In this document: positions 2,703 through 12,800 of the stretch, in pieces
How the letters are laid out: the number at the start of each line of letters is the position of its first letter
Numbering within the stretch: the stretch's first letter is position 1
DNA from: an uncultured archaeon
GTDB taxonomy: Archaea; Halobacteriota; Methanosarcinia; Methanosarcinales; Methanoperedenaceae
Assembly (NCBI GenBank): GCA_902386085.1
Contig: CABMIA010000044.1
Coordinates: 1-12,800 of the forward strand
Reading direction: 5' to 3'
DNA length: 12,800 bases
Position numbers and translations under genes: made by a program
The notes under the pieces: generated by a model
What the model saw: only the letters and a program-made list of their open reading frames with translations
Told to the model about the DNA's origin: nothing
Databases searched by the model: none

Positions 2703-2987
2703 TGCGTCCTCTCTTCCAGTTCTTCCTCATAGGCTTCGTGGGGATGAAGTTTGAGTTTACCCATGCCTTTTGCACTTTCCCTGAAAATAGCGACTGCATC
2801 CCGCTGGGGGTTTTCTATCTCCAGTTTTTTGTCTGTTAACCTGAAGACACAAGGCGCCTGGTGTAAACATCAGATATTTAAAGACATAGTTGATACTGTC
2901 GAAATCGTAAACCGGGTGCGTGGATAGAAATGAAATTTCCTGGATTCTGCAAAGTGATTCGAGATCACATAAATAACCATATCGCAA
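2699..2987 (-). pseudogene. Probable frameshifted antitoxin upstream of the PIN toxin
   Basis: The frame ending in TGA at 2701-2699, overlapping the toxin ATG, encodes an antitoxin-like acidic tail (KLKLHPHEAYEEELEERTQ). It stays open upstream through LEIENPQRDAVAIFRESAKG to a stop at 2872-2870. That frame has no ATG, GTG or TTG before ATG 2764, which would leave only 21 residues. The preceding coding-like sequence (HPVYDFDSINYVFKYL) lies in the frame one base away, so a single +1 shift around 2850-2870 would join the two. The upstream part also lacks a good start: only a TTG at 2987, inside the end of the membrane-protein gene. Possible explanations are a decayed antitoxin, a sequencing or assembly error, or a recoded gene. 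Confidence 0.5.
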
Positions 2988-3846
2988 CCGCCCCTGCGAT
3001 TGCTATACAGGCGAGTATCGATGCATCGATCCACTTCCTGTTAATCTTGCGCTCAACCTTTTCCTGCTGTATGGAAGTCTCGATGTTTTTGAGGAGATAT
3101 TCCTTGATTTTTTTGAAATCAATGAGCTTGAACCCGATGGTCACAGAGGTCGCCCAGGAATAATATGAATAAGCATATATGAACATTAAAAAGAAGAGTA
3201 TGCCCACCATGTTGTTCACTCCGAGCGTGGCATCGAGAATAATCCCTCCGACAGGAACTGTCATGATAGGAGCAAGCCCCCAGATCATCGCGGTCTTGTT
3301 ATTGAATAGGTGGTATTCCGAGGTGAACAGCCCCCACCATAATAAGAAAATGACAAGAATAAAATAATGCACAATTCCCAGCGGATATGAGGCAACATAG
3401 ACCAGCGCAGAGAACGTGAAGATTATCAGTACCATCACTTTTACTATGAATTTAAAAGACGCACCCGGAAGAATGTAGACAGATGAAGCGTCCATATCCT
3501 GCATTTTGGTGACATAATCAAGTGTGGTATCGACTTTACGATTTGTCCTCATCACCTCTACCTCCAGGGCATTAAACCGACCGATCGCATCCGTAAGCAG
3601 GTTGGCAAGTGGTTCTATCTTATAATCCCATTCCCTGTCCATTTTATCCCTGGCGATCCTCTCCAGCAGGAGATGCCTGATACCTATCCAGGCTGTCATA
3701 TAGGCAAAGCCCATTACAAGAAGATCTACGACAGTCCCGATCAGGTTGTCCGAAATAAAGGCGTCTATTATCAGCGATACCGTCGCGAATAATCCAACTA
3801 TCGTGCCGAGGATAATGGCGCTGACCACCGCCATTTTATCTTTCAT
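2965..3846 (-). CDS. Seven-helix membrane protein of unknown function, last gene of the cytochrome operon
   Basis: I do not recognise a family. The 293-residue protein shows about seven hydrophobic segments: residues 5-28, 34-56, 131-152, 156-175, 187-207, 211-233 and 273-292. A charged, helical, possibly coiled-coil loop (about 62-118) separates the first two helices from the rest, and a second charged region (about 240-272) precedes the last helix. There are no haem motifs and only one cysteine, Cys280 in the last helix. The start ATG overlaps the stop of the upstream cytochrome gene by 4 bp (ATGA) and follows the ribosome site GGTGGTGA, so the two are probably co-translated. Its place at the end of a cytochrome and signal-peptidase operon suggests a membrane anchor, conduit or assembly factor for the exported cytochromes. 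That role is inference from context only. Confidence 0.8.
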   Translation of the reverse strand: MKDKMAVVSAIILGTIVGLFATVSLIIDAFISDNLIGTVVDLLVMGFAYMTAWIGIRHLLLERIARDKMDREWDYKIEPLANLLTDAIGRFNALEVEVMRTNRKVDTTLDYVTKMQDMDASSVYILPGASFKFIVKVMVLIIFTFSALVYVASYPLGIVHYFILVIFLLWWGLFTSEYHLFNNKTAMIWGLAPIMTVPVGGIILDATLGVNNMVGILFFLMFIYAYSYYSWATSVTIGFKLIDFKKIKEYLLKNIETSIQQEKVERKINRKWIDASILACIAIAGAVAIWLFM

Positions 3847-4727
3847 GTCACCACCACATCAAAATAAGGTTCTTCATGCACCCTGAAATGCAAGGTCGCA
3901 TTTGGGGCAGGCCAGCCTGCTGATTTGCATGATATGCAGACAAGACTTCTGTACAGGTGAGGAACTGTCTGGATATTTGTATAGAAGTTGCCCGGGTGGA
4001 GGTTATCACCGTAGGCTTGATGACACTCGTCGCATGTTGTTTTGCGCGCTGCATGCTGCTGCGACGGGAATTTGCTATCGTTCCTGTTATGGCAGGTCCT
4101 GCACCATGATTCTTCATCTGTCGAGCCGCTTATGCTGTGATTAACTACCTGCGTACCATTCCTGTCAAGGACTACCGCATGACCGTTGAGAGAGACGGCA
4201 TCAAAAATATCCTTGTGACAGTCTTTACACGATACCGCTTTCATATTGTGGTTCCCTCCCTGCCTCATAGCATTATAAGAAAGATTCAGCGTCCCGACGG
4301 TCGCGAAATTTGAGATTATCCAGTCCCCTGCATTATCTGTAATAGTATAATCGATATATTCGGCCCTGGAATAGTTCAAAAGGACGTTGTATGTAGAATG
4401 GCAGGCAATACATCCTTCCGAGCTCAGATTCGAGAAGCCTGTATGCGCTTCAAAAGTATCATTCAATTGAGGGACTGCATGGCAGTATTCGCACTTAGGA
4501 AGCACATTTGTATGGTTGGTCGATGATTTGGCATGGCAGCTCGTACATGAAAAATAGGAGTGGTTGGCAGATGCAGATAACTGTACCTTGATATCCCCGT
4601 GGCATTTTACGCATTTATCCTGTACTGTCTGGTAAAACCCATGTTCCCCGGTGATAAAAGAGACTGTCTGGCTCAGCGTGGTTACAATGAGTACCAGGAT
4701 CACTATTATGAACAGCTTCTTATTCAT
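3843..4727 (-). CDS. Secreted multihaem cytochrome c with seven CxxCH and one CxxCK motif
   Basis: An N-terminal hydrophobic segment (about 5-26) serves as signal peptide or anchor. Seven canonical haem c sites follow: CVKCH 39-43, CTSCH 61-65, CEYCH 79-83, CIACH 106-110, CKDCH 167-171, CRTCH 209-213 and CDECH 232-236. An eighth site, CISCK (264-268), carries lysine in place of histidine, as at the catalytic haem of NrfA nitrite reductase. Between haems 4 and 5 lies a beta-rich, haem-free stretch (about 111-160) resembling the end of the tetra- and pentahaem proteins of this window. No C-terminal anchor follows. The start ATG overlaps the signal-peptidase stop by 4 bp, with GGTGG 7 nt upstream. 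Transfer of electrons at or outside the cell surface is the likely role. A catalytic role for the CxxCK site is possible but unproven. Confidence 0.88.
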   Translation of the reverse strand: MNKKLFIIVILVLIVTTLSQTVSFITGEHGFYQTVQDKCVKCHGDIKVQLSASANHSYFSCTSCHAKSSTNHTNVLPKCEYCHAVPQLNDTFEAHTGFSNLSSEGCIACHSTYNVLLNYSRAEYIDYTITDNAGDWIISNFATVGTLNLSYNAMRQGGNHNMKAVSCKDCHKDIFDAVSLNGHAVVLDRNGTQVVNHSISGSTDEESWCRTCHNRNDSKFPSQQHAARKTTCDECHQAYGDNLHPGNFYTNIQTVPHLYRSLVCISCKSAGWPAPNATLHFRVHEEPYFDVVVT

Positions 4728-5410
4728 TTTTTGCCACCAAGCATAGACATTATCAACGCTGTAAATGAAATTATTGTAATGACATAACCCCAGGTTCGTA
4801 TTACCACAAACATCTGTTGCAAAAAAGTGAACTGGTCTCCATATTTGTAAAGCTTCCCTTCTTTTGAGAAATCCAGGATGAAATATGAACCTATCCCAGG
4901 CACAACAACCGGATGACCGTTTATTACAATAGCTTTTGCCAGAACATCATTTTTAGTTGTCCCATAATCATCTGCCATGGGGTTGTTATCACCCTTGGTG
5001 GTTACAACATCGCCCTGCACATTTACAACCCTGTGGGTCACAGGGTTCTGGACGCCGTTCGCTTTAAATGTTATTACGTCACCTTTTTGCGGATCTTTGG
5101 AAATCGACTGGGTTAATACAAGATCGCCTCTTTGGAATACAGGTTTCATTGAATCTGATATGACCACAGCGAAAGAAATGCTTTTGAGACCAAATGCCAG
5201 AATGAGAATAACCAGTACGCTCAGCATAATATTATCCTGTTTGCGAGTATCCTTCTGTACTTTAGCGCGGCTGTATCTGGTCTTCAAGAAAACTGTTGAA
5301 AAAAAACGCATCACAACATTGTTTTCGGATTGATATAAGCAGAAAACCAATAATAACATTGTGAAAGCTCCCGATATAACAAGTGGTATTGTGTAATTAA
5401 TTTCTTTCAT
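4724..5410 (-). CDS. Signal peptidase I, archaeal/ER (S26B, Sec11-like) type
   Basis: The catalytic serine lies in ISDSMKP (Ser87). The general base is His126 in THRVV, not the lysine of bacterial enzymes, and the conserved TKGDNNPMADD segment (138-148) supplies the usual aspartates. Membrane segments are predicted at about 7-26, 62-82 and 200-222, so the enzyme has an extra N-terminal helix and a C-terminal anchor. At 228 residues it is typical in size for archaeal S26B enzymes. It removes signal peptides from exported proteins on the outer face of the membrane. Its position, 6 bp after the surface-protein gene and overlapping the next cytochrome gene by 4 bp, suggests a peptidase dedicated to this operon's products, in the way SipW or sortase-like peptidases accompany their substrates. 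The dedication is inferred; the enzyme class is clear. Confidence 0.9.
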   Translation of the reverse strand: MKEINYTIPLVISGAFTMLLLVFCLYQSENNVVMRFFSTVFLKTRYSRAKVQKDTRKQDNIMLSVLVILILAFGLKSISFAVVISDSMKPVFQRGDLVLTQSISKDPQKGDVITFKANGVQNPVTHRVVNVQGDVVTTKGDNNPMADDYGTTKNDVLAKAIVINGHPVVVPGIGSYFILDFSKEGKLYKYGDQFTFLQQMFVVIRTWGYVITIISFTALIMSMLGGKK

Positions 5411-5416
5411 TTATTG

Positions 5417-6997
5417 TCAGCGGCGCAGTTTTTTCTTCATTTCATTTCTCAATTTACTGATAAGTTTCACTTTCACATCCTGGCGGTGGAGAATCCTATA
5501 ATCCCGATCCTGTTTCAATGGTTCTGTGAATTTTTGTCCTGGCTCTGATGCTTTCGGTTTAAACATCTGTAAGAGCCATGATTTAGTACCTGCACCAGCA
5601 TTTTTGAAAGCTCCCAGATCAGGCAATACGGTTTTCATCGGATTATTCAAGACGGCCTCAGTGGTAGTTGCAGCAGGAAAATCATCATATTTTAACCTGT
5701 TTCTTATATAGTAAAGGACTCCGGCAAAAGCCAGGAACACTACGACCATCGAGACTTTTAGCGGGCTTTCGGAAACACGTTTCAGGACAGGATTATCCTG
5801 GATCGAAGAAGTCTCGGCATCCTGGACGAACACGTTCCTGAAAAGGGCAGGGGCGTCAGATACCGTGATCTTGTTAATCCCTTTATTCTTAAGATCTAAA
5901 GGTATCTCGACGGTTTTTTCTTCAAGGTACAGGAGACTCATCTCGGCTGAGCCAACAGGTACCCTGTTTGAATAAACAGTGATTGTCTTGCTGCCGGTCT
6001 TACCGTTGTTTATCGCCGATACCGATACAGTGACATTTTCTCCAAAAGGAACGAACTCTTTATTGATGTTCATGCCAGTAATAGTGATCTTTGGAACATC
6101 CAGCCTTGTGGCATCAGATTCGTTCTTGATCGTAAACGTTAGCTCGGCGTTTTTGTATTTCACATCGGGCGTATCTGCACCGAAATGCAATTTGAAAGTG
6201 CCGAGTTTACCAGCTTTTGCATCGAAAAGAACAGTCGATGTATTCAAGCCTTTCACAGTGACTTCCTGTGTAGATACCAGGGCACTATCGACAAGCATGG
6301 CAAGTTTGACCGTGCCATCCTCTTTATAATTGTTATCAAGCTTTACTTCAATCTGGAGTTTCTCCCCGACTATTCGATCGTTAATACCATCGGTGAACTT
6401 TACATCATGAAGAAGGAACCTGTCCGGAGGATATATAGTAACCGACCTGTCTATCCTGAAATTCAGGACTGCCTGGGCGATCGGGTTCCCCCTGGAGAGG
6501 AGGATGCCCAAAGCTCCGGCATTAGAACCTGTCTCATAGAACGTCTTGTACTTATCTGGGTCCATGCCGATGGCAAAAGGGTCAGTGGCGACATTGTCTT
6601 TAAATGCGTCGCGGTCGATCATGTCGTATACCACTATTTTCACTTTATAGATACCTTCCAGCCAGTCGGATCCCGGATGCAGGGTAGAAAAGACAATGCT
6701 GGGACCGTAATTGCGGTTGAAAGAATCTTGCGTTTGTACGGCGACTACATTACTATAGGGATCATAAACAACATAGAGGAACCTCAGGGCGGTCAGGCGT
6801 TCATAAGACACATTGTAAGCTGCAGAATAGAAAATAATGTCAGCCTTCGGGTCTGGAGGATATACATCAGACCAGTGTTTAGTGTAAGTGCCGTCGTTTG
6901 TGACCTGCGTTGCAAAATCAAACTTGAATTCAGGCGACGCAAAAGCTTGCGGCGCTAATAACATAAGGGTAAGCAAAAGAAAGATAATGTGTTTCAT
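5417..6997 (-). CDS. Single-pass surface protein with beta-sandwich (CARDB-like) domains and basic cytosolic tail
   Basis: The 526-residue protein has a clear signal peptide (1-20, ending AFA). A large extracellular part follows, with an N-terminal domain (about 21-190) that I cannot classify. Two predicted beta-sandwich domains of the CARDB/Ig type come next, at about 195-292 and 303-392, each with the N(D)NGK-type turns common in such folds. A transmembrane helix (about 414-431) leads into a cytosolic tail of about 95 residues that becomes very basic at its end (KLRNEMKKKLRR). There are no cysteine haem motifs. It lies between the tetrahaem cytochrome gene (17 bp upstream) and the signal peptidase gene (6 bp downstream). 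A scaffold or receptor that holds cytochromes at the cell surface is the natural guess. The tail might touch nucleic acid, ribosomes or lipid; none of this is shown. Confidence 0.8.
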   Translation of the reverse strand: MKHIIFLLLTLMLLAPQAFASPEFKFDFATQVTNDGTYTKHWSDVYPPDPKADIIFYSAAYNVSYERLTALRFLYVVYDPYSNVVAVQTQDSFNRNYGPSIVFSTLHPGSDWLEGIYKVKIVVYDMIDRDAFKDNVATDPFAIGMDPDKYKTFYETGSNAGALGILLSRGNPIAQAVLNFRIDRSVTIYPPDRFLLHDVKFTDGINDRIVGEKLQIEVKLDNNYKEDGTVKLAMLVDSALVSTQEVTVKGLNTSTVLFDAKAGKLGTFKLHFGADTPDVKYKNAELTFTIKNESDATRLDVPKITITGMNINKEFVPFGENVTVSVSAINNGKTGSKTITVYSNRVPVGSAEMSLLYLEEKTVEIPLDLKNKGINKITVSDAPALFRNVFVQDAETSSIQDNPVLKRVSESPLKVSMVVVFLAFAGVLYYIRNRLKYDDFPAATTTEAVLNNPMKTVLPDLGAFKNAGAGTKSWLLQMFKPKASEPGQKFTEPLKQDRDYRILHRQDVKVKLISKLRNEMKKKLRR

Positions 6998-7014
6998 ATT
7001 ATCGATTTTGATAT

Positions 7015-7980
7015 TTATATTACCGTAACGTTGGATACAGCAATCACATCGCCTGTCCGGTTTCCGAAGGTTTCTATCCTTATCCCGAAAGCCGGGTAGG
7101 TCCTGTTTATTATAATATTGTAGCCGTCAGAGCTAGTTTCAAAGGCTATTGTGCTCGGACGCGTCCAGTTTATTGACACAGCGGTTGAGGTATGGCAGGC
7201 AATACAATTTTCACTGGTATTGTGTTCCATACCATATTTAATGAAAGCTTCATGTATAGTGTCGGGCATCTGGTTCAGGTAATTTGAATGGCATTCCGCA
7301 CACGGGACTATGGATGCAGCATGGGCTAATGTCCCGGGAGTTACTACTCTTGAGCCTGCACCCGTAAGGTCATCAGACCCGTACGGGTCTGAATTCACGT
7401 TGATCTTTCTCGGGTCAAGGGCCATATTTTGCGTGAAAAGATCTGTGTCTTTCGGCGCCCCGTTAGAATACGTGGTTATTCCATTTACATCAGCATAATT
7501 ATATAAAACACCTGTCTCGCCAGGCGTCATGTTCCCGGCATACTGGTTATTTGCATCCCTGAACTGCGCTTGGTCATTCCCTGCCATCGCCCATTGATCA
7601 ATCGTGATCTCGCCTGATATCGATTTTGGGAAATTCCCACTCTGGAAGTTCCCTATTGAGGTAGCAAGAACCCTGTAACGTATGTTCGATGTGCTTAATG
7701 GCGTAACATTGATGTAAATCAATCTTTCATACGCATCGTCACCGCTTGCATACTGCACTCCTTTCTGGACACGGTGGCAGTCAGAGCAGGTGAAGTTATT
7801 GTGTATGAAACCGGTATGGAGTTCTATCTGGATGTCCCCGTGGCATTTAATGCATGGGACCTGGGAATCATTAGCATCAATGTTGTAGTAGGTATGCCCG
7901 CCGCTGAACTGGGAGACGGTATTGGGAATAACCCACAAGGAAATCCCTCCCATCGCGAGCAATACCCACATTAGTTTCAT
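7015..7980 (-). CDS. Secreted tetrahaem cytochrome c
   Basis: Four haem c motifs are present: CIKCH (47-51), CSDCH (69-73), CAECH (231-235) and CIACH (263-267), numbered from a GTG at 7992. I prefer the ATG at 7980 because GAGGAGTG lies just upstream and it starts 1 nt after the previous stop. A hydrophobic signal segment is followed by FSGGHTYYN, a motif shared with the pentahaem protein (FSGQHSFYN). Other shared blocks are GNFPK, SNGAP, TQNxAxDP and SRxVTPGTxxHAAS, so the two are clear paralogues. A long beta-rich stretch separates haems 2 and 3, and a beta-rich tail follows haem 4. About eight N-x-S/T sequons point to a glycosylated extracellular protein. Tetrahaem secreted cytochromes of archaea can polymerise into nanowires; membership of that family is a guess that needs a structure comparison. 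Confidence 0.9.
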   Translation of the reverse strand: MKLMWVLLAMGGISLWVIPNTVSQFSGGHTYYNIDANDSQVPCIKCHGDIQIELHTGFIHNNFTCSDCHRVQKGVQYASGDDAYERLIYINVTPLSTSNIRYRVLATSIGNFQSGNFPKSISGEITIDQWAMAGNDQAQFRDANNQYAGNMTPGETGVLYNYADVNGITTYSNGAPKDTDLFTQNMALDPRKINVNSDPYGSDDLTGAGSRVVTPGTLAHAASIVPCAECHSNYLNQMPDTIHEAFIKYGMEHNTSENCIACHTSTAVSINWTRPSTIAFETSSDGYNIIINRTYPAFGIRIETFGNRTGDVIAVSNVTVI

Positions 7981-7981
7981 C

Positions 7982-8443
7982 TCACTCCTCACAGCTCCAG
8001 CAATAGAAGGCTGTAGTCTTATACTGGATAGCGCCCGTATGACTTACAAGGCGGATCGGTATGATCAGGACATCGCCTTTTTTAGGTTCCATCCCGTCCC
8101 TGAAGAAGAGCTGCAGTGTGTACACACCTTCGTTTGGACGGTGTACTGAAGCCCAGAAGCTTGCAGGAGCTGCGGCAAGCTTGTTGATTCTGGCATTAGC
8201 ATCAATTTCCGGGAAATTCGCAGGGGTATCTGCTCTTTTATAGAAAAAAACCACGCCCGATTCTTTAAACGTAACATTATTGACCATTGGCGTGCCTTTA
8301 TCTGTTGTATTCGTTGAAACCGTCAATATGAGCGCCGGTTTTTCCAATCCCACCTGCATCGCATGCTGGTATAGGTAATATCCTGATACTGAAAGTACCA
8401 GCAGTACTACCGCTGTATATTTTACTGTTTTTTTCTTATCCAT
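7982..8443 (-). CDS. Small membrane-anchored extracellular protein ending in CWSCEE
   Basis: I recognise no family. The 153-residue protein has an N-terminal hydrophobic helix (about 8-25) after a lysine-rich start, typical of a signal anchor. A mainly beta-strand extracellular domain of about 120 residues follows, with phrases such as SGVVFFYKR and GVYTLQLFFRDG. The last six residues are CWSCEE, a CxxC pair at the very C-terminus with glutamate where a haem motif would have histidine. The pair could form a disulphide, bind a metal, or act on cytochrome cysteines. The gene lies between the hexahaem and tetrahaem cytochrome genes, 1 nt from the latter. Its first 64 bp are partly duplicated just upstream. 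A role in the cytochrome complex is inferred from position alone. Confidence 0.75.
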   Translation of the reverse strand: MDKKKTVKYTAVVLLVLSVSGYYLYQHAMQVGLEKPALILTVSTNTTDKGTPMVNNVTFKESGVVFFYKRADTPANFPEIDANARINKLAAAPASFWASVHRPNEGVYTLQLFFRDGMEPKKGDVLIIPIRLVSHTGAIQYKTTAFYCWSCEE

Positions 8444-8520
8444 TTTATTTCACTTCCTATCCCGATACCGAAAGTATCAGCAGAAGCATTAAGTGCTTCC
8501 ATGTTTATTTGCTTATCCAT
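8380..8520 (-). repeat. Diverged tandem duplication of a gene start
   Basis: Copy A (8520-8459) and copy B (8443-8380), read on the minus strand, both begin ATGGATAAG. Both end in near-identical 24-base blocks (CTGCTG, TACTTTC, GTATC, GGAT) with three mismatches. The middle 29-31 bases are unlike. Copy B is the start of the CWSC-protein gene. Copy A contains a small hairpin, GAAGCA with TGCTTC, in its middle. Confidence 0.6.
8422..8520 (-). CDS. Possible 32-residue leader ORF between two cytochrome-operon genes
   Basis: An ATG at 8520 follows directly after the TGA of the hexahaem gene. The frame runs 32 codons (starting MDKQINMEAL) to TAA at 8424-8422, overlapping the next gene's first 22 bases. 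It shares its first codons and about 24 bp of later sequence with that next gene (MDKKKTV), but the two are offset by two bases. It may be a decayed partial duplicate whose translation merely couples the neighbouring genes, or a real small protein. I see no hydrophobic segment or known motif. Confidence 0.3.
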   Translation of the reverse strand: MDKQINMEALNASADTFGIGIGSEIKWIRKKQ

Positions 8521-9114
8521 TCAAATCATTCCTAAGATTGCATTAAACAGGCTTTTCAATAAATCAAGTATGGTGAATTTTTCAAGAACAGCGGTTCGCG
8601 CTGATGTATTTGATGATGATGTTGAGGTGTTGGTTATATATACTTTGTCTTTTGCCCATGAACCGTGACATATAGGGCAGATCTTGTCCAGGTGTGCGAT
8701 ATGTATACTGTGAACCTTGTTGCCGTGGCAGGATACACACACGAATCCATTGGCTTCCGGTTTTATTATCGTGAAATTCCCGACCATATGACACTTGTTG
8801 CAATCCACAGCATTATGGCCGTTGTGGAATATCTCCCTTTCACTGCCATCTACCAGCGTGTTTCCCATGTGGCAGCCCTTGCAGATCTTGGGATTGTGCT
8901 CGGACTGCAACAAGGGCACGTTGAAACCGCCTTCGGGGAGCTTGTAGTAATGACAGTTCCCGCATTCTCCATCACCGTAATCGGCACCAAGCGTCTCTGC
9001 ATGGCACCCAAAACAGGGTGTGGGCTTATGCCAGTCCGGGATATCCGCACTTGCAGTCCATGCAGTCAATAAAAAGGAAATAATGAGCCACAGAAAACCC
9101 GTTTTTTTATTCAT
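8521..9114 (-). CDS. Secreted hexahaem cytochrome c with hydrophobic C-terminal helix
   Basis: Six haem c motifs are present: CFGCH 36-40, CGNCH 53-57, CKGCH 80-84, CNKCH 107-111, CVSCH 128-132 and CPICH 148-152, numbered from a GTG at 9120. The dense spacing (13-27 residues between motifs) resembles small periplasmic-type multihaem carriers more than the beta-rich paralogues nearby. A signal peptide covers about 1-25 (ending ASA). After the last haem comes a Ser/Thr/Asn-rich linker (about 162-176) and a hydrophobic, amphipathic C-terminal helix (about 182-199) that could rest on a membrane or another protein. I favour the ATG at 9114; the GTG at 9120 overlaps the preceding stop by 4 bp and remains possible. 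A likely role is electron transfer between the membrane and the outer cytochromes. Confidence 0.88.
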   Translation of the reverse strand: MNKKTGFLWLIISFLLTAWTASADIPDWHKPTPCFGCHAETLGADYGDGECGNCHYYKLPEGGFNVPLLQSEHNPKICKGCHMGNTLVDGSEREIFHNGHNAVDCNKCHMVGNFTIIKPEANGFVCVSCHGNKVHSIHIAHLDKICPICHGSWAKDKVYITNTSTSSSNTSARTAVLEKFTILDLLKSLFNAILGMI

Positions 9115-9116
9115 TT

Positions 9117-9344
9117 TCACTTTTTATAAGTATTAATTATTTCTGTATCTGAAAGTTTTTTAACAGCTTCATCATACGGGGTTTTTTTCCAGACCTCAAG
9201 CAGGATATTTAAAAAACATGAATCCTTTAATGTGCTTACTTCTTTCACATTACATTCGGGTTCTTTTGAAAAGCGATTCTTGAAGTCAGCTTTGAGATTA
9301 TCAAAGTTGATCTTATCCTCATCTTCGATTCTAACTACTTTCAT
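9117..9344 (-). CDS. Small charged cytosolic protein, first gene of the cytochrome operon
   Basis: I do not recognise this protein. From ATG 9344 it has 75 residues starting MKVVRIED, is rich in Lys, Asp and Glu, and has no signal peptide or membrane segment. It appears largely helical and carries two cysteines (in PECNV and DSCFL). An upstream ATG at 9362 is in frame, but the operon's TATA box predicts a transcript start near 9351, which would exclude it. The gene ends where the hexahaem gene begins. Being soluble and first in an export operon, it could be a regulator or a chaperone; the sequence gives no direct support for either. Confidence 0.6.
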   Translation of the reverse strand: MKVVRIEDEDKINFDNLKADFKNRFSKEPECNVKEVSTLKDSCFLNILLEVWKKTPYDEAVKKLSDTEIINTYKK

Positions 9345-9350
9345 CCTATC

Positions 9351-9382
9351 ACAAAATAACATTGGTAACTTAAGTATATAAA
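9351..9382 (-). promoter_or_regulatory. TATA box of the cytochrome operon
   Basis: TTTATATA (9382-9375, minus strand), preceded by AAAC, is a good archaeal TATA box. The expected start near 9351 leaves a leader of about 7 nt before ATG 9344. All genes from 9344 down to 2965 are on this strand with gaps of 17 bp or less, apart from the 77-bp duplicated stretch at 8444-8520. One long transcript is therefore likely. Confidence 0.6.
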
Positions 9383-9624: not shown

Positions 9625-10956
9625 TTACTGTCCGGTGGTTAATGCTGTTGCGCTATCGCTTGAAGATGTTCCAGCCGTTCCAAGACCTACAACCTTTGCT
9701 CCACTGCCATTGATGTACAGGTTTGTGCCTGGTGTCCAGCTATACGTCTTGTTGCCGGTTGCGAAGGTCTGGCCTGAGCCGTTGCCATATACTGCAATAT
9801 TGACATTTCCTTCAACAGCGAAGTTGCCAACGCTGTACTGTCCGGCTGAAGATTCCGTTGCGCTGAACGAAAGCTTGTAGCCCTTCTGGAAGTTGATATC
9901 AACTGCGACGTGCGTGTGGCATGCAATGCATGCGCCGTTGGATGCGCCGTAGCCGAATCTGTTGATGCCATCATTTGTTTTCACGAATGCATTATGGGCT
10001 TCAACCGAGCCAGTGTCGCCTGCAAACTTTGTCAGGCCGAATCCGCCAGCTTCGAGTGCATGCTCAAACGCCGGGGTATGCGAGGACGTGCTATAGTGGC
10101 AGTTCTGACATCCGCTGTTCGGATTCGTGGGATCAATCAACCAGCCGGAATGCATATATGGTTCTGCAGATCCGATTTCGTATCCCGCAACACCCTTCTC
10201 CTGTTCTCCACCGTGGCATTCCATACAGGAAACCAGTGATGCTGCATGGTACCTTGTACCTGGCGTGACCTCTCTAGAGCCTGAACCGTTGAAGTTAAAC
10301 GATCCAGTTCCGGATATCGTAACCGCGCTCGGGTCAACTGCATTATTTTGTGTCGAAGTATTCTGATCCAGGGGTGCGCCATTTGAAAAAGTGGCTGTTT
10401 CTGACACACGGGAGAAATTGTATAGTATACCAGCACTCTGGGCGGTAATTTGGCCAGCATAGAATCCCCTGTCATCCCTGTAATCAGTCTTTTCTACGAA
10501 TGTAGTCAAATCAAGGTTCTTGGCACTGAAGACAGACCAATCACTGATAGTTTTGGTGGCAGCACCGACGCCGGTGATCTGTTTCGGGAAATTTCCAGTC
10601 TCGTAGTTCTGTATCGTGGTCGCTACATACACTGACGTTACGGCTGCCGGACCGGTGACATTAGCGTATGTTAATTTTACAATCGCATTGTCGCCGCTTG
10701 CCATGCCTGCCTCAGACCTGTGGCAGTACTCACACTGGAAATCTGCGTGCGGGCCTTTCGTGCCTGTCACTGTTGATAGTCCACTGTTCAATTCCGCTTT
10801 CACATCACCGTGGCATTTCTGACACGGGATCTGGTTGCCTGTTGCATCTATGTTGTAGAAAGAGTGCTGCCCGGAAAATAATGCCATTGTAGACGGCAGA
10901 GCGAACACACCTACTCCAACCAGCGCAATCAAAGCTAAGCTAAGTTTTGCGTTCAT
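9625..10956 (-). CDS. Secreted pentahaem cytochrome c, stand-alone gene
   Basis: Five haem c motifs are present: CQKCH (45-49), CEYCH (75-79), CMECH (244-248), CQNCH (283-287) and CIACH (343-347). A signal peptide (about 1-25) precedes FSGQHSFYN. The protein is a longer paralogue of the tetrahaem protein at 7015-7980. It has the same two N-terminal haems, the same beta-rich middle with GNFPK, SNGAP and VTPGT blocks, and the same CMECH/CIACH pair, but an inserted segment (about 250-340) carries the extra haem CQNCH. The tail after CIACH (348-443) is rich in Gly, Ser, Thr and Asn and probably beta-structured. The gene has its own promoter, a long structured leader and its own terminator, suggesting high and separately controlled expression. 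It is the best candidate here for an abundant extracellular or filament-forming subunit. That role is inference. Confidence 0.92.
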   Translation of the reverse strand: MNAKLSLALIALVGVGVFALPSTMALFSGQHSFYNIDATGNQIPCQKCHGDVKAELNSGLSTVTGTKGPHADFQCEYCHRSEAGMASGDNAIVKLTYANVTGPAAVTSVYVATTIQNYETGNFPKQITGVGAATKTISDWSVFSAKNLDLTTFVEKTDYRDDRGFYAGQITAQSAGILYNFSRVSETATFSNGAPLDQNTSTQNNAVDPSAVTISGTGSFNFNGSGSREVTPGTRYHAASLVSCMECHGGEQEKGVAGYEIGSAEPYMHSGWLIDPTNPNSGCQNCHYSTSSHTPAFEHALEAGGFGLTKFAGDTGSVEAHNAFVKTNDGINRFGYGASNGACIACHTHVAVDINFQKGYKLSFSATESSAGQYSVGNFAVEGNVNIAVYGNGSGQTFATGNKTYSWTPGTNLYINGSGAKVVGLGTAGTSSSDSATALTTGQ

Positions 10957-11102: not shown

Positions 11103-11137
11103 AATTAAAGTTGTTGTTTTTTGTATATATATTTATC
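11103..11137 (-). promoter_or_regulatory. TATA box of the pentahaem cytochrome gene
   Basis: The minus strand reads GATAAATATATATAC from 11137 to 11123, a strong TATA element. The expected start is near 11103, giving a leader of about 147 nt. The run is nearly symmetrical, so it might also serve the divergent plus-strand gene at 11246, although TTTAATAT at 11163-11170 is another candidate for that gene. Confidence 0.55.
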
Positions 11138-11245: not shown

Positions 11246-12364
11246 ATGACAGATGAAAAACCAGCCATAATCACGGCAGAAGAAAAAAAAGAACCTAACG
11301 ATGTTATTCCACCCCAGGCCGGCATCAAGCGCGCTTTCTGCGTGGCACTTCCTGTAACCGGTGGAAAACCATTAAAATTAACAGGAGACGGCCCGCATGA
11401 ATTCATACCGTTCCTTAAAGATTCGGGAATTGCATGGCTGAACTTCCCGGTCAAGGATATAAAAAAAGATGCCGATCTCATCGCAGTATCCCTGGGTTTT
11501 GGCTCTTCTCTCGTACCTGCGCTTCTTTCCAGCTACCTGTCTGCATATGAAGACCGCGATACTGAAATGGGGTTGATGCTTCCGGCAGTGGCGGTGAAGA
11601 AATTCGATGTTCTCATCAGCCCGATATTGATCCTGATAAGAAAAGACCTCATAGTCACAATCCATGATGAGAATGTGAATCGTCTAATCCGCCTCTCCCG
11701 CTATGCAGATGCCTTTATGAGAAAGATCAAGCCCAACCTCATACCTGAGGATAAGTTAACGATCATCCTTACACGAATAATCGATGAGAACATTAACAGG
11801 AATTTTGACCATTTGCGCGAGATAGAAGCCCAGGGCGATGAACTGAGCAAGATACTTCTTGATACCACAACACCGAGAGGAATGATCGCACCCGAGATAT
11901 ACAACATGAAACATGCACTTATAAGTTACATGGACACGCTCTGGGCCACGCTTGATGTGGTAAATTCGCTTCGCCACGGGGATGCAGAACTCATCACCGA
12001 CAGCCCCAAATTGCTTGCGCGTGTGGGTATTCTTTCTGATGACGTAAACAGGCACATAGCACTCAGCGAACACATGTCGGATGTCCTGGCATCAGGACTT
12101 GAGGTGCTCCAGAGCATCTACAATAACCAGCTTCAGATCCTGAACAACAGGCTTGCGCTCGTCATGACATGGCTCACGATACTCGGTACAGCCGTGCTTG
12201 TACCAAATACTCTTGCAACAGTGTTCAGCAATCCGGCCTTTAATCTCGGCCCGGGGGATGAAATATGGTATTCTTCCCTTATCATATTATCAACAATAGT
12301 CTCAACATGGGCGGCTTACTGGTGGATAAAAAAGAAGGGATTGATGCCATTCAAGGTTGACTGA
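11246..12364 (+). CDS. CorA-superfamily (MIT) divalent-cation transporter-like protein without a GMN motif
   Basis: The 372-residue protein has the CorA plan. A soluble alpha/beta N-terminal domain (to about 150, including the CorA-like VTIHDENVNRL) precedes a long helical stalk (about 165-300), then two C-terminal membrane helices (about 304-327 and 341-360) and a short basic tail. Known CorA proteins carry GMN at the end of the first helix, forming the pore entrance. Here the corresponding place reads FSNP (327-330), and the loop to the second helix holds GPGDE. The protein may therefore be a diverged transporter with other selectivity. GAGG lies 5 nt before the ATG. A seven-codon frame starting at 11226 (MGTEEAI) ends on the start codon and could couple translation. 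It is divergent from the pentahaem gene and unlikely to belong to its pathway. Confidence 0.8.
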   Translation: MTDEKPAIITAEEKKEPNDVIPPQAGIKRAFCVALPVTGGKPLKLTGDGPHEFIPFLKDSGIAWLNFPVKDIKKDADLIAVSLGFGSSLVPALLSSYLSAYEDRDTEMGLMLPAVAVKKFDVLISPILILIRKDLIVTIHDENVNRLIRLSRYADAFMRKIKPNLIPEDKLTIILTRIIDENINRNFDHLREIEAQGDELSKILLDTTTPRGMIAPEIYNMKHALISYMDTLWATLDVVNSLRHGDAELITDSPKLLARVGILSDDVNRHIALSEHMSDVLASGLEVLQSIYNNQLQILNNRLALVMTWLTILGTAVLVPNTLATVFSNPAFNLGPGDEIWYSSLIILSTIVSTWAAYWWIKKKGLMPFKVD

Positions 12365-12800
12365 TCATTTTTTAGTTAGAACATTTGAAATTGCAAGAAT
12401 CACAAGCAGAGCTACAACTATTATGCCCAGGACTATAAGCATTGTCAGGACAACGCTTTTCATGGTCGATGGCACCGGGGCCGGAGTAGCAGTTTCTGCC
12501 GGCAGGGTTGTCTGTACAACAGTCGGAGTCGGTGCTGGCGTGAGCGTGGGAGTTGCAACAGTCGGTGTTATCGCCGGCGGCAATCCAACCACATCTCCAG
12601 CTGCTATTTTAGCATTGCCAGCGATATCTATCGCTACATACGCGAACTTACTTCCATCGAGGCTATAGGATGGGCTTTGCTGCCTGTGATCATCAGATAC
12701 AACGAATAACCTTTTATTGGAGCCATCTTCGTTAATCGCGAAGATTCTCTCAAGAGATAATGTATTGCTTTCATACGAAACGTATGTTATCGTACCTTCC
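12365..12800 (-). CDS. C-terminal part of a beta-propeller surface protein with Pro/Thr stalk and membrane anchor (cut by window edge)
   Basis: The frame is open from the right edge to TGA at 12367-12365, so the start lies outside the window; a GTG at 12592 is an internal valine. The visible 144 residues begin with a PD40/TolB-like propeller blade: RIFAINEDGSNKRLF, then QQSPSYSLDGSKFAYV, the usual pattern of such repeats. A linker of about 40 residues very rich in Pro, Thr and Ala follows, then a strongly hydrophobic helix (VVLTMLIVLGIIVVALLVIL) and a short tail ending KK. This is the layout of an archaeal extracellular protein held by a C-terminal anchor through a stalk, probably glycosylated. 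The stop codon abuts that of the convergent gene with no gap. Propeller function, whether binding or enzymatic, cannot be judged from one blade. Confidence 0.75.
   Translation of the reverse strand, partial: EGTITYVSYESNTLSLERIFAINEDGSNKRLFVVSDDHRQQSPSYSLDGSKFAYVAIDIAGNAKIAAGDVVGLPPAITPTVATPTLTPAPTPTVVQTTLPAETATPAPVPSTMKSVVLTMLIVLGIIVVALLVILAISNVLTKK

Follow-up and report, generated by a model that had tools for sequence, protein, structure and literature searches.

Why should a gene for a type I signal peptidase sit inside an operon of multihaem cytochromes, directly between genes for a surface protein and a cytochrome? This question is raised by contig C44 (12,800 bases; hereafter the window), from a 1.69-Mb archaeal genome that is 63.6% complete; the homologues with organism names of one window protein, P526, come mostly from Candidatus Methanoperedens, and we take the organism to be a methanotroph of the Methanoperedens type. 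Based on homology, gene order and genome-level co-occurrence, we consider it quite probable that the locus is a module dedicated to processing, assembling and anchoring nanowires of the AvECN type, AvECN being a filament cytochrome of Archaeoglobus veneficus. The original prediction for this DNA, an export and assembly system for an extracellular electron-conducting structure, is thus supported as far as sequence can support it, by two AvECN homologues, conserved neighbours and co-occurrence.

The seven genes on which that prediction was built, from the hexahaem cytochrome to the seven-helix protein, are all present on the minus strand; its interval missed the ECN gene just upstream, at 9625-10956. 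In the order of the minus strand, followed by two TATA-like elements, the features are:

9625..10956, minus: ECN, AvECN-type cytochrome, 443 residues, five CxxCH; matched by phmmer to PDB 8e5g_A
9117..9362, minus: small soluble open reading frame (ORF), 81 codons long, with the ATG at 9344 as its probable true start
8521..9120, minus: Cyt6, six-haem cytochrome, six CxxCH; signal peptide and hydrophobic C-terminus
7982..8443, minus: small N-terminally anchored protein (the "CWSC" protein), aligned in 15 rows
7015..7992, minus: Cyt4, ECN-like cytochrome, 325 residues, four CxxCH
5417..6997, minus: P526, with beta-sandwich domains behind a signal peptide, a single membrane helix at residues 412-437 and a basic tail
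4724..5410, minus: type I signal peptidase (Ser/His/Asp), TIGR02228 match
3843..4727, minus: Cyt8; ECN-like N-terminal domain and C-terminal haem extension, seven CxxCH and one CxxCK
2965..3846, minus: TM7, membrane protein without a Pfam family, seven predicted membrane helices
9369..9382, minus: TATA-like element TTTATATACTTAAG of the Cyt6-TM7 operon, candidate promoter, found by eye only
11123-11134: TATA-like element AAATATATATAC ahead of ECN, candidate, found by eye only

Relatives of AvECN and their companions across genomes

When searched against the PDB with phmmer, ECN and Cyt4 each gave a single match, in both cases 8e5g_A (E 1.1e-24 and 3.8e-12). Entry 8E5G (AvECN, UniProt F2KMU8, 262 residues) is the A. 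veneficus filament, solved as a filament by cryo-electron microscopy (PMC11936953, PMC12954529; here and below, statements on the literature refer to the parts of each paper available to us). In a 20-row alignment of ECN-like proteins, which includes both window proteins and in which AvECN itself is not a row, the four CxxCH sites and residues P21, F27, G29 and H31 are invariant and T23 is nearly so. AvECN as printed starts with F-L-G-Q-H; it shares with ECN and Cyt4 sequence homology and the F-x-G-x-H start, whereas it lacks the fifth CxxCH and the long insertion of the window ECN, which is about 180 residues longer (443 vs 262). The window ECN is likely, from its sequence, to be the main nanowire subunit, and Cyt4 is a candidate minor subunit. 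ECN itself is not new, since ECN in Methanoperedens was already named by another group (PMC12246660).

The same genome holds a further ECN gene of 436 residues (L230, G000:C38:6630-7940). In M. nitroreducens, two 5-haem cytochromes were described, one among the two most expressed extracellular cytochromes on nitrate and the other with expression raised 44.2-fold on an electrode (Zhang et al. 2023, PMC10542353). The M. nitroreducens contig that we read has two 5-haem ECN genes at its cluster; judging by haem count and by the small ORFs between them, they may be Methanoperedens_00388 and _00391. M. nitroreducens also has a mini-cluster in which a 3-haem ECN-like protein is accompanied by a peptidase of its own and by a 5-haem protein (L104:5449-7953).

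We then compared gene contents genome by genome. Within the genus (31 genomes, counting that of the window), ECN (E < 1e-10), TM7 and the cluster-type peptidase (E < 1e-30) were found in the same 26 and were absent from the same five, G012, G013, G014, G023 and G029 (Fisher test, 5.9e-6). Four of these five are at least 95% complete and G029 is 77% complete; the Cytochrome_C7 family, present in 31/31, gave 41, 25, 15, 13 and 4 matches in them. ECN presence predicts TM7 better than cytochromes in general do.

Among 57 Archaeoglobales, TM7 was detected in 23 and ECN in 26, 24 of them at E < 1e-10. The peptidase was detected at E < 1e-45 in 23, while any match at all occurred in 47, the remainder at E 8.5e-24 or worse. 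TM7 and strong ECN occurred together in 22 genomes, TM7 only in one (G106), ECN only in two (G079, where the match contains stops, and G099) and neither in 32 (Fisher test, 1.7e-12); an identical table (22, 1, 2, 32) was obtained with the peptidase (E < 1e-45) in place of TM7. In the 392 genomes of the phylum, which include these 57, so that the two counts are not independent, we found TM7 in 60 and ECN in 69 (both 58, TM7 only 2, ECN only 11, neither 321). Five of the 11 ECN-only genomes have weak matches (E > 1e-4) and six have strong ones; five of these six are at most 81% complete, and completeness is 92% for the sixth, G331. Restricting ECN to E < 1e-10 gave counts of 57, 3, 6 and 326. 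The association of ECN, peptidase and TM7 is strong, and we have next to no doubt about it. In the search proposed with the original prediction, peptidase and TM7 occur with ECN-type cytochromes genome by genome in the genus and in Archaeoglobales, TM7 also across the phylum.

Gene order and neighbourhood

From the small ORF through TM7, the intergenic gaps are -4, +77, -11, +17, +6, -4 and -4 bp, small overlaps and spacings that make this set of genes operon-like. A single promoter with 4-bp overlaps had been proposed; the gaps and the TATA-like element agree with it, but the 81-codon ORF that heads the operon, overlapping Cyt6 by 4 bp, had been overlooked. This ORF has counterparts at the same position, 63-69% identical, in three other clusters (L026, L032, L034). 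ECN lies 262 bp upstream of it and is probably a separate transcript, because of this spacing, a T-rich stretch beyond its stop and its own TATA-like box. The gene order repeats elsewhere in the genus, with protein identities of about 44-78%, and the grouping is therefore more than chance.

For the wider neighbourhood, we used hidden Markov models (HMMs) built from our own alignments, some rows of which come from the surveyed loci. The peptidase lies with ECN in 14/16 Methanoperedens regions and with P526 in 14/16, the two misses (L035 and L043) being contig-end halves of one genome; these regions were selected by a P526 match (16/60 genomes, own included), so the linkage is not that of a random sample. 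In Archaeoglobales, peptidase and P526 are both present in 14 of 20 TM7 regions (20 of 23 covered; G060, seen via L062, G106 and G119 were left out). Elsewhere in the phylum, outside the genus and Archaeoglobales, one or more of peptidase, ECN, P526 and Cyt8 accompany TM7 in 23 of 31 regions; these are one region per genome, from 31 of the 33 further genomes with TM7 in the phylum sample (G172 and G398 were left out). Physical linkage to ECN is usual in the Methanoperedens regions covered and uncommon in Archaeoglobales, and peptidase, P526 and TM7 recur as a set, in Methanoperedens and several other lineages with ECN genes as neighbours. The original prediction would have failed if the peptidase had been the only one in the genome and its neighbours had not been conserved; neither is the case, as the neighbours are kept in related genomes and a second peptidase of this kind lies on contig C12, beside a 4-haem ECN-like gene (L111, G000:C12:1-5378). 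A relative that is 99% complete has a further peptidase without surrounding cytochrome genes.

We also examined the genome that encodes AvECN. In G083, taken to be A. veneficus, a 262-residue ORF contains the printed 8e5g fragment letter for letter. A second ECN-like gene adjoins it, followed by a Cyt6-like gene, and behind each of two further ECN-like genes comes a Cyt8-like one. The genes for TM7, peptidase, P526 and a MinD-like protein form a group at C1:1,645,464-1,650,120; the peptidase-P526-TM7 module is thus unlinked from AvECN. No counterpart of the 81-codon ORF or of the small anchored protein was identified in our scan of G083. By homology, the organism with imaged wires has the main parts, in separate places.

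Divergent arrangements were also seen. A second type of ECN cluster (L056-L060; L036 and L039 by Pfam) has P526 followed by an ATPase resembling MinD/ParA and by a winged-helix protein for which a membrane helix is predicted; these two possibly place the wires on the cell. The gene for the oligosaccharyltransferase AglB heads two divergent clusters tested (L058:1816-4077; L037:16915-17994), a position hinting that the wire proteins are glycosylated. In three Archaeoglobales loci (L121, L124, L130), a P526-peptidase-TM7-MinD module without cytochromes lies next to rows of genes for single-helix proteins. Of these loci L121 was scanned, and several of its neighbours match the pilin-like DUF7287/7288/7289 and VWA families; the cytochrome-free module of L113 is next to a helicase and an ATP-binding protein. 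A link to TasA or to a bundling pilus was considered and dropped, no TasA being found among the module neighbours of L121 and L113.

Elsewhere in the window are a tetraether lipid synthase, Tes (110-1630; NF045702, 711.9 bits vs a cut-off of 450), a PIN-domain protein between it and the operon, perhaps half of a toxin-antitoxin pair (2301-2702), a CorA-like transporter on the plus strand (11246-12364) and a C-terminal piece of an anchored protein, TolB-like in appearance and without a Pfam match (12365-12799).

The encoded proteins and known systems

The Ser/His signal peptidase of the original prediction is a genuine one, of the archaeal type I (TIGR02228, 87.1 bits, cut-off 51.85). Ser87, His126, Asp141 and Asp147 are invariant in 17/17 aligned rows, and we take S87 and H126 to be the catalytic pair. 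We propose that the enzyme serves precursors of the ECN type specifically. From 105 loci larger than 4.5 kb we took 216 distinct ORFs with three or more CxxCH, of which 78 carry F-x-G-x-H-x-x-(Y/F/W/V) within the first 75 residues: 68/98 labelled ECN, 10/42 labelled Cyt8 and 0/76 other cytochromes, a split that is partly circular, as the HMMs giving these labels span the motif region. The four six-haem ORFs with the strict motif are all labelled ECN, and many Cyt8 heads without it show S-F-I/V-x-G-(E/D)-H in its place. By eye, an ending P-x-T-x-(A/S) precedes the common mature start F-x-G-x-H at the predicted cleavage point, suggesting a single cleavage class for a dedicated peptidase.

Cyt8 alone gave no match to the PDB at E <= 0.001. 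A profile of 20 ECN proteins, compared by hhalign with one of 14 Cyt8 proteins, aligned with Cyt8 columns 1-199 of 370 (probability 100, E 2.5e-46); at the level of profiles, Cyt8 therefore consists of an ECN-like domain and a haem-bearing C-terminal extension. Its last haem site is CxxCK in 7/14 rows and CxxCH at the same place in the other 7/14, which bears out its earlier description as a "7+1-haem" cytochrome. With an ECN-like head on an extension, Cyt8 may cap the end of the wire or form its base.

Giant proteins headed by a Cyt8 domain, of about 1,000-3,500 residues, are present in 8/10 window-type clusters (the window, L026, L028, L029, L030, L031, the second part of L032, L033, L034, and the pair L035/L043, which comes from a single genome and counts once), and in neither the window nor L034. 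The giants reach 3,131 residues in L026, 2,590 in L030 and 1,976 in L045 (the contig of L029), and open frames of 3,543 and 3,251 residues occur in G015 and G007. In L028, L032 and L033, they have at least 987, 988 and 1,002 residues, the stretch or contig ending there; in L028 and L031, the large version is the only Cyt8 found. Both giants scanned (L026, L030) contain Big_9 and CarboxypepD_reg domains. Such giant surface proteins, at L026:1101-10496, L030:852-8624, L031:10901-19000 and other places, have about 2,000-3,500 residues where complete, and the two scanned have a haem head followed by Ig-like and carboxypeptidase-regulatory-like repeats.

The AlphaFold2 model of P526 (mean pLDDT 79.7, pTM 0.53) has beta-sandwich domains and one C-terminal membrane helix, in agreement with the single-pass surface protein expected, and P526 is a candidate scaffold. 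Its best 50 Foldseek matches were only generic Ig/FnIII-type proteins, e.g. RbmA. The model of TM7 has, by count, seven predicted membrane helices, again as expected; W170 and W171 are invariant and W187 and W231 nearly so, the topology around them being a prediction only. Relatives of Cyt6 occur in many clusters, and in G083 such a gene lies two genes from AvECN; Cyt6 is a candidate electron donor at the wire base. The small protein is present and anchored, with P36, W97 and W149 among its invariant residues, and in several divergent clusters it has a lipoprotein-like N-terminus. The CWSC tail for which it had been singled out is found in only 2/15 aligned relatives and is rejected as a functional motif, a Trp near the C-terminus being what is invariant.

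Three known systems resemble the locus. In anaerobic methanotrophic (ANME) archaea, a signal peptidase and an "8x TMH" protein were described upstream of CcmF and MHC-B, with a suggested role in cytochrome maturation; the latter protein was reported in every ANME group, Syntrophoarchaeum, Argoarchaeum, Geoglobus and Ferroglobus (Chadwick et al. 2022, PMC9012536). In our locus L225, the order is peptidase, TM7, a 34-haem S-layer-domain protein and CcmF, the last two with Pfam matches, and ECN-like genes adjoin the peptidase. As this gene order is like the published one and the TM7 of L225 is homologous to that of the window (hhalign probability 99.9, E 5.1e-31), TM7 belongs, by context, to the "8x TMH" family, the paper's own sequences being outside the comparison. 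A large periplasmic loop with several conserved Trp is a trait of that family; the conserved Trp of TM7 may or may not lie in such a loop, its topology being a prediction. Whereas L225 shares this order with the ANME pair, the window cluster has neither CcmF nor a giant S-layer cytochrome; the partners there are ECN, Cyt4, Cyt8 and P526.

In Bacillus, the tapA-sipW-tasA operon likewise combines a peptidase with an extracellular polymer and its accessory protein (PMC9674648). The analogy, drawn in the original prediction, stands for a peptidase within a polymer-like operon and does not extend to the families: the window peptidase scores 42.6 bits against the SipW cut-off of 190, and no TasA-type Pfam match was found among the window proteins scanned. 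In the OmcZ/OzpA locus, also known from Methanoperedens and Borgs, a cytochrome-wire gene again adjoins a processing protease (PMC10874420, PMC11208441). That locus has OmcZ, the serine protease OzpA and a prolyl isomerase, whereas the window has AvECN-type cytochromes and a type I signal peptidase; an OzpA-like serine protease was not found, the only peptidase-family matches in the window being signal-peptidase ones. The distinction between ECN and OmcZ is drawn here from PDB matches, AvECN being the sole one of ECN and of Cyt4.

Alternative explanations and meaning

In the mechanism that we propose, the ECN precursor would be exported and would receive its haems from the Ccm system, encoded elsewhere. 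The dedicated peptidase would cut ECN, Cyt4 and Cyt8 after an ending like P-x-T-x-(A/S), freeing the mature start F-x-G-x-H (known as a conserved sequence only), and the subunits would polymerise outside the cell after cleavage. TM7 and P526 may form a membrane platform and a stalk through the S-layer; Cyt6 would feed electrons into the wire base, Cyt8, by its ECN-like domain and extension, would end the wire, and the giant versions in relatives would link the wire end to a surface or a partner via their Ig-like repeats.

That the module is instead a general maturation aid for large multihaem cytochromes, with ECN genes nearby by happenstance, seems to us unlikely. In its favour are the published position of the pair next to CcmF and MHC-B (Chadwick et al. 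2022, PMC9012536), an order that L225 shows, as well as L105, where a 35-haem S-layer cytochrome follows peptidase and TM7, and large cytochromes near TM7 in L115, L116 and L117. Yet ECN-like genes adjoin the peptidase in L225 and L105 also, the five Methanoperedens genomes with other multihaem cytochromes and no strong ECN lack both peptidase and TM7, and several Archaeoglobales modules have no cytochrome nearby, ECN lying elsewhere in the genome. A short-range conduit across the S-layer, in which P526 and TM7 hold a fixed complex of ECN-like, Cyt4, Cyt6 and Cyt8 proteins and no long polymers arise, is to our mind more improbable still. It would account for four different cytochromes at one locus, and the greater length of the window ECN means that polymer contacts may have changed; but the structure of the closest solved relative is that of a filament (PMC12954529, PMC11936953), and several ECN-like genes in a row in some relatives (L039) fit a main subunit. 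As for chance, with one of several general peptidases in a meaningless place, signal peptidases are indeed common and these genomes have others, but the 14/16 linkage with ECN in the Methanoperedens regions (chosen by P526) and the conserved neighbourhoods contradict it, and the peptidase subfamily tracks ECN in the 57 Archaeoglobales; we give chance almost no credence.

Some observations weigh against the nanowire module that we favour. At a looser E <= 0.001, ECN is found in 30/31 genomes of the genus (the extra four at E 8.5e-5 to 9.7e-4) and the peptidase in 29/31; the stricter limits were chosen after the lists had been seen, in gaps that are wide (1.6e-13 to 8.5e-5 for ECN, 2.5e-35 to 6.1e-5 for the peptidase). 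The co-occurrence counts ignore kinship, and the five absences in the genus could be one loss. In Archaeoglobales, 14/20 TM7 regions as read have no ECN match, two of the 6/20 with one (L128, L129) have it only inside a large cytochrome at a contig end, and in 5/20 TM7 is alone; elsewhere in the phylum, it has no partner in 8/31 regions, many contigs being short. The strict motif is missing from 32/42 Cyt8 ORFs, and a fold search of the TM7 model against the PDB gave no match at E <= 0.001. Finally, we infer the processing and assembly roles from sequence alone.

Two parts of this picture are already published, ECN homologues in the genus (PMC12246660) and the peptidase/"8x TMH" pair in ANME archaea (PMC9012536). 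The union of peptidase, TM7 and ECN as one system was not found in the literature searched, which did not extend to most subscription-based journals or to the original ECN paper (Baquero 2023).

More tentatively, archaea may possess a dedicated and conserved nanowire-building machine made of peptidase, TM7 platform, P526 stalk, Cyt8 end subunit and giant Cyt8 grip. If this is true, the giant Cyt8-headed proteins, of up to about 3,500 residues, would be a built-in grip for a mineral, an electrode or a partner cell. For the processing, anchoring and ending of archaeal cytochrome wires, a short gene list is offered that co-occurs with the wire proteins even where unlinked, and a testable cleavage motif and candidate end subunits are named. 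Our results suggest that the known ANME gene pair be assigned to nanowire biogenesis instead of to cytochrome maturation in general. As the genome that encodes AvECN has homologues of most parts, the idea can be tested there by proteomics. How archaea build nanowires would thus become directly testable, parts of the kit being present in most related genomes with such filament proteins.

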